Assembly: GCA_029242715.1 (NCBI GenBank)
Contig: JAQWTL010000020.1
Span: 434,001 to 498,000, forward strand
Length of the DNA: 64,000 nucleotides
Direction of reading: 5' to 3'
From: Phycisphaerales bacterium
GTDB lineage: Bacteria; Planctomycetota; Phycisphaerae; Phycisphaerales; SM1A02
Of the stretch, positions 25,378 through 31,437 are shown piece by piece (position 1 is the first letter of the stretch; every line of letters begins with the position of its first letter). The notes under the pieces are model-generated. The model had not been told where the DNA came from, ran no database searches, and worked only from the letters and a program-made list of their open reading frames with translations. The position numbers and the translations under genes were made by a program.

Positions 25378-27615
25378 ATGACTCTTCTTCCCCTTCTCAG
25401 CCGCAAGGCTTGCACACTCTCATCACTGGCACTTTCCATGGCCCTGACTGGTATCGCATCAGCCCAGGAACGTGAATGGGTGTCCTTCGATGACAGTCCA
25501 GCTGGAACCCCCCCGACAGTCAACTTGCTCACTGCAAACTGCAATCCGGAAAAGGCCCTGTTTGATGTCAAGATCCACGGCCTGTGGCTTGAGAACCGAA
25601 CTGATCCCAACACAGGTGAAACGTTCAAGGCTGTTTTGCTGCCTGACAGCAGTAGTTCCACTGACGCCTACGGCTGGCCTGAGCTGCCCAGCATTCCGTT
25701 GAATCTGGCCATCCCGACCCGTGATGCCAACTACGGTTTCGACACCAACGTTCTCGAGCGCGTTGTACTCGAGAACATTCATGTCGCACCTGCTCAGCCC
25801 AAGGAAGCTGAAGACCGTGATGGTGATTCTGATCAGAATGTCTTCTACTACGACCAGGGCTTCTATCAACAGACCAGTTCGCCATGGCCCGAAGGCGATG
25901 CACGACCCATTGGCCAGACGCATTCGAACCATGGGATTCCTACTCAAGCCGTCACCATGCAATGCGTTCGATCCGTCCCGGCTGCCAAACAACTCGTAGT
26001 CGATACGCGATTCCAATTCACAGCCAGCTTTGCAGGCAATCCAATCGAACCCTTCGAAATGAATCGACGTTTCGCGGCAAGATTCGATCTCCAGTACCAC
26101 AATGCACCGATGTGGTGGCAACTTCAACTTGCCCGATTGAACGCTGGCGCCAACGAAGGCTGCTATCTGATCGTTACTGCACAGAAATATGTCAATGAGT
26201 TGATGCCATTGATCGAGCAGAAGACCGAACGAGGCCTTCGCGTCACCGTCGTGACGACTGAGAGCCTTGGCAGCGGCTTCGATCATACGGACGTCAAATC
26301 CGCCATCAATGACTGGTACGGAGACTGCGACAGCATCTTCGAAGCCTACGTACTGCTTGTGGGCGATGTTGATGAAATGCCGATGCACATCGACCCCGTC
26401 AACGAACTCCCCTCCGATCATTACTACGTCTGCCTGGAAGACGAACTCTTCCCTTCATGTGAAATCGGACGTTTCTCGGTCGACTCCGAAGAGGATCTCG
26501 AGGAACAGATTTCGAAGACAATGAAGTACTCGGAAAGCCCGCTGCTGGTTTCTGGCCACTATGAGCGTTCACTTCTCGCCGCTCACAAGCAGGAATCCAA
26601 GTATTACGTCGAATGCATCGAAGATATCGCTACTGCCTCCTACTGGGGGTACAACCCGACGTTCAAGCTCTTCTCTGGCCGCGAAGCAGATTCACTGGTT
26701 TCCAACGTCTTAGATGAGATCAATGAGACCCACTACGGCCTCGTGATGTATCGCGGCCATGGCTGGAAGCTCAAATGGGGCGACAACTGGAACATGTATA
26801 ACGAGGAACTCTGGGACACGGACGTCGCAGGGCTCACCAATGGACGTTACACACCCATCGTCGTAGCAGTCGCCTGTGGCAACAATGCCATCGACATGGA
26901 AGATGATTCCATCAGTGAAAAATGGATGGAAGGCTCGGAGAATGGCGCAGTCGCCCACATCGGTTCGATCCGATCAAGCAAGACGACTCCAAACCATGAA
27001 TTCGCAAAGGCATTCCAGCACTACTACTGGTGCGGCTACAGCCTGTGTGCCAGCGAGATGATGCAGGATGCCTGGATAACCGCTCGGATGAATGTTTCAA
27101 ACCAGTCAAGTGCTGAAAAGAACATCTACATGTCACAGTTGCTGGGCGATCCCGAACTGCGTCCTCGGCAGCAGGCCCCATGGCATATTGTCTTCAAAGA
27201 CGTGCCCGACTGGTTCCACCCAGGCATCAATGAAGTCTCACTCCAACTGGAACTGGACCGTACAGAAGACCCCACGGACATCCTTGTATCAGTGACGATC
27301 AACGATGAGCCTGTCAGCCTGGCCCGCGTTGCCGAAGATGGAACCATCAACCTGCAACTCGATGTTCCTGCAGACGCAAAAGTAGTCATTCGTGGCTTCA
27401 GCGAGCTGGGAAGTGGCGTCGATGGTCGATATGAGATTCCAGTCGGTCACGATGACTGCCCCGCCGACCTGGATGGCGATGGCGAAGTCGAAGTCGATGA
27501 CCTCCTTCTGATCATCTCGTCATGGGATTCACCCAACGCTGATATCACCGGTGATGGCACTACCAACATCGATGATCTGCTCGAGGCCCTGGCAGGCTTT
27601 GGCCTGTGCTCGTGA
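25378..27615 (+). CDS. Secreted gingipain-type C25 peptidase with dockerin-type tail
   Basis: A 745-residue exported cysteine peptidase. There is a signal peptide (about residues 1-29, ending TGIASAQ) and an N-terminal propeptide-like beta region. The C25 catalytic domain starts near CYLIVTAQKYVNELMPLIEQ and contains LLVGDVDEMP, the catalytic His461 in MYRGHGW and the nucleophile Cys500 in VAVACGNN. An Ig-like part follows (SLQLELDRTEDPTDILVSVTIN), then two dockerin calcium loops (DLDGDGEVEVDDL, DITGDGTTNIDDL). It would cleave proteins outside the cell. Known gingipain relatives cut after Arg or Lys, but specificity cannot be read here. A terminator follows. Confidence 0.9.
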   Translation: MTLLPLLSRKACTLSSLALSMALTGIASAQEREWVSFDDSPAGTPPTVNLLTANCNPEKALFDVKIHGLWLENRTDPNTGETFKAVLLPDSSSSTDAYGWPELPSIPLNLAIPTRDANYGFDTNVLERVVLENIHVAPAQPKEAEDRDGDSDQNVFYYDQGFYQQTSSPWPEGDARPIGQTHSNHGIPTQAVTMQCVRSVPAAKQLVVDTRFQFTASFAGNPIEPFEMNRRFAARFDLQYHNAPMWWQLQLARLNAGANEGCYLIVTAQKYVNELMPLIEQKTERGLRVTVVTTESLGSGFDHTDVKSAINDWYGDCDSIFEAYVLLVGDVDEMPMHIDPVNELPSDHYYVCLEDELFPSCEIGRFSVDSEEDLEEQISKTMKYSESPLLVSGHYERSLLAAHKQESKYYVECIEDIATASYWGYNPTFKLFSGREADSLVSNVLDEINETHYGLVMYRGHGWKLKWGDNWNMYNEELWDTDVAGLTNGRYTPIVVAVACGNNAIDMEDDSISEKWMEGSENGAVAHIGSIRSSKTTPNHEFAKAFQHYYWCGYSLCASEMMQDAWITARMNVSNQSSAEKNIYMSQLLGDPELRPRQQAPWHIVFKDVPDWFHPGINEVSLQLELDRTEDPTDILVSVTINDEPVSLARVAEDGTINLQLDVPADAKVVIRGFSELGSGVDGRYEIPVGHDDCPADLDGDGEVEVDDLLLIISSWDSPNADITGDGTTNIDDLLEALAGFGLCS

Positions 27616-27639
27616 CCTGAAAAGTTCATGTGGTTCTGC

Positions 27640-27674
27640 GAGGCGCCCGGCTCCGGCCGGGCGTCTCGTGTTTT
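27640..27674 (+). terminator. Intrinsic terminator after the C25 peptidase
   Basis: GAGGCGCCCGGC (27640-27651) pairs with GCCGGGCGTCTC (27656-27667) around TCCG, with one G-U pair, followed by GTGTTTT. The T-run abuts the stop codon of the convergent gene at 27673, so the hairpin lies within the terminal region shared by both transcripts. Confidence 0.85.
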
Positions 27675-28491
27675 ATGACACCGCAGCGATGGCCGCTTCC
27701 AGATCCAGGTACCACTTGAGAATGCCCGAATCGCCACGAAGCCCGGCAGCTGGAAATTCAATAGCAGATGGCGACGCAGATGTGGCCATTCGTATGGCCT
27801 CACCAACTTCACGGCCCTGCGCCAGAACCGCAATCATTCTGGCTGCGTTGATTGCAGGAAACGTCATGCTGACCCAGTGCGGATACACATCCTGATCGTT
27901 ACTACTGGTGAAGCGTGCGCGGCGAGTTGGCTCGGTGATTGCATCATTGCCCGGAAACAAACCACCAACACGGCCATTCTTTCCCAGATCAAGAACTACG
28001 CAGTCAAGGTGGCCTGCTCCATGTGAACGCGAGTCCACCACTTCACGAAATTTCGCTTCAATGATCTCGTCAGCAGTTTCATCGGTACTTGGAATGGAAT
28101 GCACTTGCGGCAATGGAATACCGGCCGGCTGTATGAGCGTTTCCCTCAACCGCCAATAGCACGACAGAGGATCATTTCTCGGGACACAACAGTCATCTAC
28201 GAGCCACAAGTGCGTCCGGTCCCATGGAAAGCGGCGGAGATCCGGATCGAACATCATCCGGCGACAAAGTGGCTCAAGACTCTCGCTGCCACTGATGGCC
28301 AGATGAAAGCTCCCGAATCGATGTGTGCAATCCAGAGCCTGTGCCAGCATGTCCGCCGTCAGCAGATCCAGAACATCTTCGCCATGATCAGGCACTTCAA
28401 CGAGCCCTGGTAGTGGTGGACGTTCTACGGGTACCCCGCCTTCAAGCGGATAGCCATCATCCCGACCGGTATCGGAATCTGATCTGTCCAT
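27673..28491 (-). CDS. 6-phosphogluconolactonase-like protein with degenerate active site
   Basis: A 272-residue protein with the fold signature of the 6PGL/DevB branch of the NagB family: FHLAISGSESLEPL, RTHLWLVDDCCVP, DPLSCYWRLRETLI, then VSMTFPAINAARMIAVLAQG. The two motifs that define active 6PGL are altered. The usual WADERxVP is VDDCCVP (residues 98-104). The usual GxDGHxASLFPG is GKNGRVGGLFPG (170-181), so the catalytic His is Arg174. The Lys expected in GxxK after the final strand is also absent. It may be an inactive, regulatory or re-purposed homologue. ATG at 28491 has GGAG 10 bases upstream. No zwf or gnd neighbours. Confidence 0.8.
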   Translation of the reverse strand: MDRSDSDTGRDDGYPLEGGVPVERPPLPGLVEVPDHGEDVLDLLTADMLAQALDCTHRFGSFHLAISGSESLEPLCRRMMFDPDLRRFPWDRTHLWLVDDCCVPRNDPLSCYWRLRETLIQPAGIPLPQVHSIPSTDETADEIIEAKFREVVDSRSHGAGHLDCVVLDLGKNGRVGGLFPGNDAITEPTRRARFTSSNDQDVYPHWVSMTFPAINAARMIAVLAQGREVGEAIRMATSASPSAIEFPAAGLRGDSGILKWYLDLEAAIAAVS

Positions 28492-28576
28492 CAATTCACA
28501 GCTCCATCTCCGTGATCTTGCTGACAAGCCCTAAGCCCTGCCCGCAAGATCCTAAGATACGGCCATCCTGCCCGAG

Positions 28577-29929
28577 GTGAAGAAACCCTCCCGGAAATCA
28601 CACATGAGCTTCTTGATAACCGTCACGCTGAGCCTGTTACTCGCTTATTCCCCCTCAGGCGGAGCAGCCCAGCCCTCTCTGGATGATCGCATTGATCCCC
28701 AACGAATCACCCTGCTGGGCCCCACGCTTCCGACCGGTCAGATCTCGGAACCACCATTGCCGGTCCATCGGATTGCCGCTGATGCAAGACAATCACTGCT
28801 ATCACCCATGAACACACTCCAGGCCAAGCGAGCTGTGCAGAAGGGTGTCCAATGGCTGCTTGCACATCAGAATCCCGGCGGCGGCTGGGGTGGCGGAACG
28901 ACAACCACTCCAACAGACGATCCCGAGGCACCGCCAACACCAACAGCTGCAGCAATCACCGGATTGGGAATCATGGCCGTTGCGCAAAGTGGGCTGGTTG
29001 ATATCGGGCAACTTGAACCTGCCATTGAACGACTGCGAATGGCTCGGCGAAAAGACTTTGGAATTGATGAAGGCCCCCTGTCCAACTACGTGCTGGCTGC
29101 CATCACCAGTGGCCTTGCGAGTCTGGAGAATCCCGCCTTTGACGAACTGGTTGCAGACGGCGTGACAGCATTACGCAGCAACCAATGGGATGCAGATGAA
29201 GGGTTGATGATCACACAGGACTGGTATGGCGGCGCGGGCTATGGGAATCGAGGCAGACCGGACCTTTCCAATACGCAGATCATGCTGGACGCTCTTTACG
29301 ATGCAGGAGTTGGTCCTGATGACATCGCGTTTCAACGTGCCGTGGTATTCCTGACACGTTCTCAAAATCTGAACTCGACGAATTCAGCTCCCTGGGCCGG
29401 CAATGATGGCGGCTTCATCTACACACCTGCCAACGGGGGCGAATCTCTGGCATCTGAGGCCGCAGGCCATGGACGTCGCGGTGACGAGAACCTGGCTGCA
29501 GGCGAACCGGTACGACTGCGAAGCTACGGATCCATGACATATGCCGGCTTCAAGAGCCTTCTCTACGCCGGCCTGGGACCGGACGATCCGCGTGTACGGG
29601 CTGCCATGAACTGGATGCGTCAGCACTGGACACTTGAGGAGAACCCAGGCCTCGGACAACAGGGCTATTACTACTACCTCTACACCATGGCTCGTGCCTT
29701 GCGTACCTCCCAACGCAATGAGATCACAAGCATTGATGGAGTGCGTCATGATTGGCGAGCTGAAATGACAGCTGCCATCATGACACGTCAGCAGACGGAT
29801 GGTTCTTGGATCAATAAGACAGATCGATGGCTGGAAGGCAATCGTGACCTTGCCACCATCTATGCGATCCTTGCACTTGAGGAAACCCTCAAACCACGAT
29901 CAATGACATCGGAGCAGATAAGCCCATGA
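28577..29929 (+). CDS. Secreted alpha/alpha-toroid protein (squalene-cyclase/prenyltransferase repeat type)
   Basis: A 450-residue exported protein. The N terminus (KKPSRKSHMSFLITVTLSLLLAY ...) is a signal peptide if the GTG at 28577 is used. An ATG at 28604 would remove its basic part. The rest is made of helical repeats of the toroid kind: GVQWLLAHQNPGGGWGG, AITGLGIMAVAQSG, AVVFLTRSQN, AAMNWMRQHWTLEENPGLGQQGYYYYLYTMARAL, ILALEETL. The DxDD motif of hopene cyclases is absent, so a cyclase reaction is not supported. Planctomycetes commonly carry such proteins of unknown role. The stop overlaps the esterase start as ATGA. Confidence 0.8.
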   Translation: MKKPSRKSHMSFLITVTLSLLLAYSPSGGAAQPSLDDRIDPQRITLLGPTLPTGQISEPPLPVHRIAADARQSLLSPMNTLQAKRAVQKGVQWLLAHQNPGGGWGGGTTTTPTDDPEAPPTPTAAAITGLGIMAVAQSGLVDIGQLEPAIERLRMARRKDFGIDEGPLSNYVLAAITSGLASLENPAFDELVADGVTALRSNQWDADEGLMITQDWYGGAGYGNRGRPDLSNTQIMLDALYDAGVGPDDIAFQRAVVFLTRSQNLNSTNSAPWAGNDGGFIYTPANGGESLASEAAGHGRRGDENLAAGEPVRLRSYGSMTYAGFKSLLYAGLGPDDPRVRAAMNWMRQHWTLEENPGLGQQGYYYYLYTMARALRTSQRNEITSIDGVRHDWRAEMTAAIMTRQQTDGSWINKTDRWLEGNRDLATIYAILALEETLKPRSMTSEQISP

Positions 29930-31437
29930 CTGTTGCAATAGCACTGGCAATCTCACTTCAAGCATTCACCAACTCGAATGCCTCTGCCGCGACCGCTCCC
30001 ATGATTTCCCTGAGTTACCCGGAATCGGTTTCCGAGTCTTTCTCTGGTTCTGTCTACGTAGCCTTCACCCGTTCCAAACGTGGAAGCCCTGCTGGCCCAA
30101 TGAACTGGTTCGCGCCGGAGCCCCTTTTTCGTATTGATGTTGAGGAATGGGCACCTGGCGAGCACCTGGTATTTGGACCTGAAACTCCTGGCTTCCCAGA
30201 TCAACTTGGCAATCTTGAACCAGGGCAGTGGCGCGTACAGGCAGTCATGCGAACCGATCCTGATCTGACTTCCATCACAGGCGGTGATGCCATACGGAGC
30301 GCCATCAAGAAAGTGCGTCATGGCGAAACCGATGCCTGGCCACTGGACCTGTCAATAGACAAGGTCTCGTCCCCACGGCAGCCATACCAACCGGAAGGCG
30401 CTGCCAACCTGACTCATCGCAGCACGTTGCTGAGTGACTTCCACGGCCGCGACATCGACATGCGAGCCATGGCCTTCTTTCCCAAGGATTTTGATCCAGA
30501 AGCTGATCGCAATTGGCCCGTTCTGTACGTCATTGGCGGGTTTCCTGGATCCCTCAGCGAAGCGCCCATGGCTCAGATGTTCTGGGGAGATCCTGATCGC
30601 AATCAGGATTTTGTGGTCGTCTACATCGAAGGTGAATGCGGAACAGGCCATCATGTCTTCGCTGACTCTGCAAACAATGGACCACGAGGACAAGCATTGG
30701 TTGAGGAATTCATCCCCTGGCTTGAATCCAAGTATCCATTTGTCCAGGGGCCCGAAGGGCGACTGCTCACTGGGCACTCCTCTGGTGGCTGGTCCTCTCT
30801 TTGGCTCCAGATCACGTATCCGGATGTCTTCGGTGGAACATGGTCGACCGCTCCTGACCCTGTTGATTTCCATGCTTTCCAGCAGATCGACATCTACGCA
30901 GAAGATGCCAATGCCTACAGGCATCCTGATGGCAGCCGAGTTGCCGTAGCTCGTGGCCGCAATGGCAAGCCAACTCTTTTCATGGATGACTTCTGTGCCA
31001 TGGAAGAGGCACTCGGCGATGGTGGACAAATCCGCTCATTCGAGTGGGTCTTTTCTCCCCGAGGCGAAAACGGCAAACCCCGCCCACTCTTTGATCGTGA
31101 ATCCGGCGAGATTGATCCTGAAGTTGTCGAGGCATGGAAGGCCTATGACATCGCACACATGCTCAAGAAGAACTGGAAGACTCTTGGGCCGAAGCTTTCA
31201 GGAAAGATCCATGTGTACATGGGCGGCCAGGACACCTTTTATCTGGATGAGGCAGCTCGGCGGCTCCAGTCACAGATGAAAGAAATGGATTCCGATGCAG
31301 AGATCGTGATCATGCCTGGAGATCACTCAAGCATTCTTTTCGGGCGACTCCAGAACAAGATCATCGAGGACATGACTGCCACGATGGACATGGAGCGTCA
31401 TACGCCCGGCGCATCAGCTGGCTCTGTGACTGACTGA
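29926..31437 (+). CDS. Secreted alpha/beta-hydrolase, putative esterase (Esterase D family type)
   Basis: A 503-residue exported hydrolase with a signal peptide (ALAISLQAFTNSNASAA), an N-terminal beta domain of ~150 residues, and an esterase D-like alpha/beta-hydrolase domain. Features are WPVLYVIGGFPG (oxyanion region), the nucleophile Ser in LTGHSSGGWSSLW, and the likely His in MPGDHSSILF. The substrate is unknown; relatives include feruloyl and siderophore esterases. It starts inside the stop of the toroid gene (4-base ATGA overlap), so the two are translationally coupled. Its 3' end overlaps the convergent ctaA by 40 bases. Confidence 0.85.
   Translation: MTVAIALAISLQAFTNSNASAATAPMISLSYPESVSESFSGSVYVAFTRSKRGSPAGPMNWFAPEPLFRIDVEEWAPGEHLVFGPETPGFPDQLGNLEPGQWRVQAVMRTDPDLTSITGGDAIRSAIKKVRHGETDAWPLDLSIDKVSSPRQPYQPEGAANLTHRSTLLSDFHGRDIDMRAMAFFPKDFDPEADRNWPVLYVIGGFPGSLSEAPMAQMFWGDPDRNQDFVVVYIEGECGTGHHVFADSANNGPRGQALVEEFIPWLESKYPFVQGPEGRLLTGHSSGGWSSLWLQITYPDVFGGTWSTAPDPVDFHAFQQIDIYAEDANAYRHPDGSRVAVARGRNGKPTLFMDDFCAMEEALGDGGQIRSFEWVFSPRGENGKPRPLFDRESGEIDPEVVEAWKAYDIAHMLKKNWKTLGPKLSGKIHVYMGGQDTFYLDEAARRLQSQMKEMDSDAEIVIMPGDHSSILFGRLQNKIIEDMTATMDMERHTPGASAGSVTD

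Follow-up and report, generated by a model that had tools for sequence, protein, structure and literature searches.

A 6-phosphogluconolactonase homologue without its catalytic residues, and the segment its degenerate relatives retain, in Phycisphaerales

Why should a bacterium keep an open and constrained gene for an enzyme whose active site is gone? The question is raised by a 64,000-nucleotide stretch of DNA from a Phycisphaerales bacterium (assembly GCA_029242715.1, contig JAQWTL010000020.1, positions 434,001 to 498,000), hereafter the window, in which positions 27673..28491 of the minus strand encode a 272-residue homologue of 6-phosphogluconolactonase (6PGL) that we call P0001. With slightly better than even confidence, and judging from sequence comparison, we read P0001 as a pseudoenzyme derived from the ancestral Phycisphaerales 6PGL, in which an older, non-catalytic second role would have outlived the pathway.

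Active-site losses in P0001 and its genus

The frame of P0001 runs uninterrupted through 272 codons to a TAA stop, and the protein scores 115.4 bits against Pfam PF01182 (cut-off 27), which places it in the 6PGL/NagB family. Against the NCBIfam pgl model for active 6PGL, TIGR01198, it reaches 103.3 bits, under the cut-off of 124.45. A NagB-type deaminase (glucosamine-6-phosphate deaminase) was rejected as an identity, the best NCBIfam model giving 22.4 bits for a cut-off of 326. The AlphaFold model of P0001 has a mean pLDDT of 92.3, with low confidence at residues 1-20, and its best structural matches are solved 6PGLs (3ico_A: Z 30.1, root mean square deviation 2.3, 233 residues aligned), the fold spanning residues 29-271. 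The proposal of a sequence-only reading that this is an intact, retained homologue without catalytic residues is supported.

The catalytic-site residues of the Giardia 6PGL are given, in the portion of the source available to us, as Thr/Ser60, Thr61, Arg93, His151, Arg182 and Lys205 (PMC6165198). Transferred to P0001 through motif and spacing, not through alignment of the Giardia protein, these positions hold E70 and S71 (both in the phosphate loop), C101, R174, W206 and V229. Only S71, at the second loop position, still carries a hydroxyl, a mild change. The replacement of the catalytic His of the DGH motif by Arg174, within codons 168-176 (the former GxGxDGHTA, 27964..27990, minus strand), and the loss of the GxxK lysine, position 229 being Val, had both been noticed from the sequence and are confirmed. 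Two other motif changes described there stand in altered form. The DER motif has indeed changed, but VDERCV aligns with VDDCCV, hence the result is D-D-C and not DCC; and in the step from DGH to NGR the Asp-to-Asn part carries little weight, as Asn also occurs in several canonical copies (GDNGH). Further losses went unlisted: the phosphate loop GG(S/T)TP reads GSESL, SN has become SC at N111, and W206 replaces the Arg that precedes the VT strand. With conserved catalytic motifs lost from an open and constrained frame, P0001 can be classed as a pseudoenzyme.

These losses extend to related genomes. An orthologue with 61-80% identity is found in 6/6 species of the genus, each having Arg where the catalytic His is expected and lacking the GxxK Lys; a sequencing error is very unlikely because six species share the state. 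The R101 to Cys change is confined to the window species, the five sister species keeping Arg. Supply of the catalytic His from another position also appears unlikely, since of the four His invariant in the genus only H57 is new (found in 2 of 67 canonical copies), H63, H94 and H131 being common there (62, 64 and 66 of 67).

Degenerate copies and the retained segment across the order

A similarity search with P0001 covered 101 genomes (its own and 100 relatives), from a group mostly of uncultured bacteria, and gave a match in 96, with none in G008, G048, G050, G068 and G090. Each copy was scored at eight key columns (G69, T/S71, E100, R101, N111, D/N172, H174 and K229). With a threshold chosen once the values were known, 31 copies scoring 0-4 are termed degenerate and 65 scoring 5-8 canonical; the sole copy scoring 5, from G019, is truncated at a contig end. 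Two degenerate copies (G012 and G099) have His at column 174, most other positions being gone. Among the genomes without a match, G048 and G090 (86-88% complete) have both zwf and gnd; PF01182 gave no match in G048 and two in G090, NagB-like by score.

An order-wide draw of 400 genomes contained 132 without zwf, 105 of them with a match to P0001 and 27 without. From the 105 we hand-picked 30 genomes beyond the first survey, in 27 genera, five of them (G120, G133, G176, G224 and G255) from genera already sampled, and 28/30 copies proved degenerate, those of G179 and G189 (family f6) being canonical. Both surveys together scored the residues in 56 of the 105, giving 48 degenerate and eight canonical copies. 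The 28, fetched after the segment described below had been defined, and the 31 of the first survey make up the 59 degenerate copies considered here. None of the 59 has a stop inside the matched stretch, and that of G193 is split across two contig ends.

The columns conserved in canonical copies fall into two sets. Lost in the degenerate copies are, among others, G69, T71, P72, D99, E100, R101, N111, G168, G170, H174, S177, F179, R206 and K229; kept are, among others, F62, D82, P83, R86, P89, W90, T93, H94, W96, H131 and D163. In P0001 the degenerate phosphate loop (residues 67-72) and the retained segment D82-P83-x-x-R86-x-x-P89-W90-x-x-T93-H94-x-W96 lie together in codons 67-105 (28177..28293, minus strand). 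D82, R86, P89, W90 and W96 occur jointly in 59/59 degenerate copies (28/28 in the added set), and H131 and D163 in 56 and 57. The residues of the lost site are found in far fewer of the 59: P72 and N111 in none, H174 and K229 in two each, R206 in 10 and R101 in 17. The 67 canonical orthologues hold both sets (D82 in 65, R86 in 66 and H174 in 66), with the five kept residues jointly present in 64.

A further 11 canonical copies are second copies in genomes that also carry a degenerate one. All 11 have P72, R101, N111, H174, R206 and K229, whereas D82 is present in one and R86 and W96 in none. The 6PGL fold and reaction therefore do not seem to need D82, R86 and W96, since these canonical proteins are mostly without them, and the comparison as a whole indicates that the lactonase residues and D82/R86/W96 do not require each other.

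Some degenerate copies are reduced further. Those of G009/G051 and G012/G054 are missing the loops that frame the active site (around residues 103-110, 139-158 and 180-203 of P0001), and the model of the G009 protein (222 residues, pLDDT 88.7) retains the fold, with Z 20.3 to 1vl1. In genus g19 the copies come to 146-172 residues, by frame or chosen start, and match mainly around the kept segment.

Redundancy, locus history and selection

Across the 101 genomes zwf (PF02781) is present in 72 and gnd (PF00393) in 74, absence being scored by elimination in nine genomes for zwf and seven for gnd. Of the 31 degenerate copies, 20 belong to genomes that have neither zwf nor gnd, and the other 11 to zwf-bearing genomes. 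All 11 of the latter hold a second, canonical pgl, with zwf in its fetched flanks in 10/11 (not G032), and no second match appeared in the P0001 search among the 65 other genomes. Among those 65, which carry canonical copies, zwf is present in 59 and missing from six (G013, G015, G016, G037, G056 and G062), five of the six being <90% complete. The window genome has one zwf only, on another contig, and the canonical pgl that the sequence-only reading had proposed to look for is found beside it (locus L001); each of the six species of the genus has such a canonical copy. Clustered at ~208-211 kb of contig G000:C41 (locus L168) in the window genome are zwf, a gnd of the short type, a gene resembling phosphoglycerate mutase and a pgl of a different subtype, with an SGGxSPW loop. 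The same loop subtype occurs in the second copies of G001-G005, G039, G040 and G045 (continuing as SPWI in G045 and SPWA in G040). On the same contig (locus L003, G000:C41:276992-280645) a NagB-like domain opens a 666-residue frame with a second part that we take to be PIG-L-like; similar long frames are common in relatives.

In family f1, pgl is flanked by genes in the order ruvX-manC-ruvA-plsC-carB. Within the fetched flanks (<=6 kb, shorter at contig ends) zwf was found at 40/65 canonical loci and at 0/30 degenerate loci. The degenerate f1 copies adjoin ruvX, manC or a squalene-cyclase-like gene in 21/21 cases (20 fetched loci and the window), and we therefore regard them as the old pgl in place. 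In the window this place is marked by the old neighbour ruvX (PF03652; 24829..25263, plus strand). A C25 (gingipain-type) peptidase gene at 25378-27615, with an end judged by eye to be dockerin/EF-hand-like, separates ruvX from the pseudo-pgl in the window as well as in 3/5 sister species. A terminator-like stem-loop (27637..27670, plus strand) lies between the peptidase gene and the end of the P0001 gene, one site being found where about one is expected by chance. On the other side, an 85-bp gap (28492..28576) with a GGAG-like ribosome site upstream of the P0001 ATG reaches as far as the earliest possible start codon (GTG, 28577) of a divergent gene for a squalene-hopene-cyclase-like repeat protein (PF13243; 28577..29929, plus strand), which is syntenic in relatives. 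Together with a putative esterase gene it forms a divergent pair (28577-31437) that occupies the place which zwf has in other f1 genomes.

An rpoB tree, a single gene tree of 60 genomes (31 with degenerate and 29 with canonical copies), was used to count changes of state. The label requires six changes (5-7 in bootstrap trees, five changes being forced by starred branches, shuffle mean 20), a count that cannot by itself separate gain from loss, canonical residues being the family norm. The degenerate groups are G075; G082/G097/G099; G092/G095/genus g46; G024/G025/G026/G027/G060; G032; and a clade of 15 genomes that includes the window genus. In family f2 the surroundings differ: a gene for an RluA-type pseudouridine synthase (PF00849) lies downstream on the same strand at 26/44 loci examined, that is at 26/36 f2 loci among them, the placement of G353 being unsure owing to a long frame. 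In many f2 loci (e.g. L139, L265) an opposite-strand gene, presumably hemW-like, follows the RluA-type gene. Synteny points to no conserved partner shared by f1, with ruvX and the squalene-cyclase-like gene, and f2, with the RluA-type and hemW-like genes.

Selection was estimated as the ratio of nonsynonymous to synonymous substitution rates (dN/dS) by NG86 on 13 degenerate pairs, five of the 15 genus pairs and eight others; ten of the 13 gave a value, all of them rough and all <0.41. The genus pairs of P0001 gave 0.067, 0.111 and 0.140, two being saturated, and the canonical copy in the same pairs gave 0.082, 0.074, 0.211 and 0.109, with one saturated. Among the other degenerate pairs, G027-G060 gave 0.087, G061-G074 0.083, G061-G066 0.138 and G061-G070 0.240. 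The identity of P0001 is above that of the canonical copy in 4/5 genus pairs and below it in one (G001-G005). At invariant amino acids the frequency of codon differences is 0.589 for P0001, 0.513-0.592 for four neighbour genes and 0.597 for the canonical copy; being like that of the neighbour genes, it gives no sign that the conserved segment is constrained at the level of DNA or RNA.

A possible second role, its rivals and known systems

Read from the sequences, the history in family f1 begins with an old zwf-pgl pair beside ruvX, from which zwf then left. Now either another pgl is present, mostly beside zwf elsewhere (the window genus, G026, G032, G039, G040 and G045), or neither zwf nor gnd is (20 genomes). 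The old pgl lost its residues for catalysis and phosphate binding, several times independently, while the gene was retained. The sequences show this repeated loss, the retention, the constraint and what it acts on. We infer that the ancestral protein already had a second, catalysis-free role, most likely as a binder of some macromolecule, and that the segment DPxxRxxPWxxTHxW (residues 82-96), which many of the order's copies share, would take part in it; once the lactonase activity was useless, selection would have continued for the second role alone. The broader claim, which we judge evenly balanced, is of a 6PGL with two jobs, the second of which, needing D82, R86, P89, W90 and W96, outweighs the reaction. 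On at least five or six occasions this job would have persisted when the oxidative pentose phosphate branch was lost or replaced, even in mini-proteins with hardly anything left apart from the segment. If so, the segment of the canonical copies would do the same job and the partner would occur throughout the order. The RluA-type neighbour of f2 is a weak lead towards RNA modification or handling.

A number of observations weigh against a retained second role. The canonical second copies also hold P89 (9/11), W90 (11/11), D163 (11) and H131 (7), so some of the kept residues belong to the ordinary core of a 6PGL, and D82 and R86 could form a bond of local structural importance. The residue counts depend on MAFFT alignments of diverged proteins, and detection is biased: every copy came from a similarity search with P0001 or its genus profile, and the similarity is strongest around the kept segment, so that segment-less copies could escape, for example in the 27 zwf-less genomes without a match, and 59/59 overstates the certainty. 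The proteins of G012, G023 and G059 fall under the Pfam cut-off, and their family membership rests on synteny and the segment. Four genomes without zwf and gnd (G013, G015, G037 and G062) have canonical copies, that of G015 without the Lys; loss therefore does not follow at once. RluA-type adjacency is also seen at a canonical copy, that of G089. Concerning selection, dS is mostly near or above 1 (saturation), which makes the dN/dS values rough, and 3/13 pairs are without one, among them G023-G059. P0001 is less conserved than manC in 5/5 genus pairs. Some lineages look relaxed: G012-G054 at 0.339 and G009-G051 at 0.194 exceed their neighbour genes (0.13-0.15 and 0.04-0.07), G025-G026 reaches 0.406 (ruvX of the same pair 0.326), and the G023-G059 proteins are 33% identical.

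A rival reading is a slowly dying relic: after loss or replacement of zwf the old pgl would be under weak constraint and not yet deleted, the segment would be the core that stays stable longest as the domain decays, and segment-less copies would go undetected. The loop-deleted or 146-172-residue copies in f1 genera g5, g8 and g19, the raised dN/dS of G012-G054 and G009-G051, and the failure to find a copy in 5/101 genomes and in 27/132 zwf-less genomes of the wider draw all point that way. We nevertheless hold a relic to be unlikely, though to be taken seriously, as the gene is retained over whole clades (15 genomes in that of the window), dN/dS within the genus is close to the low values of the canonical copy, the matched stretch is free of stops in all 59 degenerate copies, and five residues are invariant in 59/59 while adjacent residues and entire loops vary.

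The old pocket might instead bind a sugar phosphate or other small ligand without chemistry, as in the SorC/CggR effector domains of the same fold, to which the predicted structures of P0001 and G009 show Z of ~12-14 and 10-11 respectively. No other fold stood out in the structure comparisons of these two models, which is not proof of absence. A sensor of this kind is improbable in our estimation: the Pfam search gives PF01182 as the sole match in P0001, with no DNA-binding domain, the published site has lost most of its residues, and relatives without the active-site loops still keep the protein. Loss of most phosphate-holding residues, and in some relatives of the pocket loops, makes a pocket-based sensor less likely. 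For the same reasons, of the re-purposed sugar-phosphate-binding protein proposed from the sequence, the retained protein stands, whereas binding of a sugar phosphate at the old site appears, from the residues, the less likely role, most phosphate-holding positions having changed along with the His.

We give equally little credence to an altered enzyme, with a new active site built in the same fold from, for example, the genus-invariant H57, C76, C111, C164, R174 and W206. These six new residues are invariant in the six species and rare in the 67 canonical copies (2, 0, 0, 1, 0 and 0, respectively), and single ones recur among the 53 other degenerate copies (C76 in 9, C111 in 4, C164 in 11 and R174 in 7). 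None is general, however, H57 being present in two of the 53 and W206 in one, so that such a site could explain the window genus and not the retention elsewhere. That P0001 is still a weak 6PGL with a base from another residue, such as H57, is very improbable. In its favour, the predicted overall fold is unchanged, H57 is shared by the whole genus but seldom seen in the family, and migrated catalytic residues are noted for some pseudoenzymes in a review (PMC10211241). Against it, the changes affect the loop, the His, the second Arg and the Lys at once, H57 lies within the first long helix (model residues 40-59), and all six species of the genus have a canonical copy.

The same orthologous gene seems to have turned pseudoenzyme at least five or six times, in all observed cases where the reaction was redundant or absent, with a set of non-catalytic residues fixed. 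To our knowledge pseudoenzymes have mostly been described as single paralogues, and the order may thus offer a natural experiment that separates, by residue, two functions of a supposedly simple enzyme. In practical terms, 'pgl present' in these genomes does not imply an oxidative pentose phosphate branch. The oxidative branch is often missing in UBA1845, another Phycisphaerae order, according to a report in which the word gluconolactonase is absent (PMC11266412). Passages of the pseudoenzyme review name allosteric, scaffold and similar roles; the families named there are others, and the word gluconolactonase is absent from that text too (PMC10211241). Searches of open-licence literature, judged by title or abstract start, gave no report of a non-catalytic bacterial 6PGL.

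P0001 shares its fold with canonical 6PGL (Pgl/DevB, TIGR01198, PF01182; 3ico, 1vl1, 2j0e) and appears to descend from a canonical, zwf-linked pgl. Unlike canonical 6PGL it has most catalytic and phosphate-binding residues changed, scores under the NCBIfam cut-off and has no zwf adjoining. The effector-binding domains of SorC/CggR/DeoR-type proteins are non-catalytic users of a similar fold (Z ~12-14). Such domains come fused to a DNA-binding domain and have sugar phosphates as ligands; in P0001, by contrast, Pfam shows no DNA-binding domain, and most phosphate-holding residues are missing.

Among eukaryotes, the yeast proteins Sol1 and Sol2 are paralogues in the 6PGL family that lack lactonase activity and were retained in one lineage for a different role. 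A published table that also lists the lactonases Sol3/Sol4 gives SOL1/SOL2 a possible role in tRNA export (PMC5886582). The RNA-related gene beside the f2 copies gives these a loose likeness, by analogy, to Sol1/Sol2; Sol1 and Sol2 are paralogues, whereas the Phycisphaerales case appears to be repeated loss at an orthologous place. Non-catalytic 6PGL-family proteins, as in yeast, and SorC-type regulators of the same fold were thus already known, and what seems new is this bacterial case.
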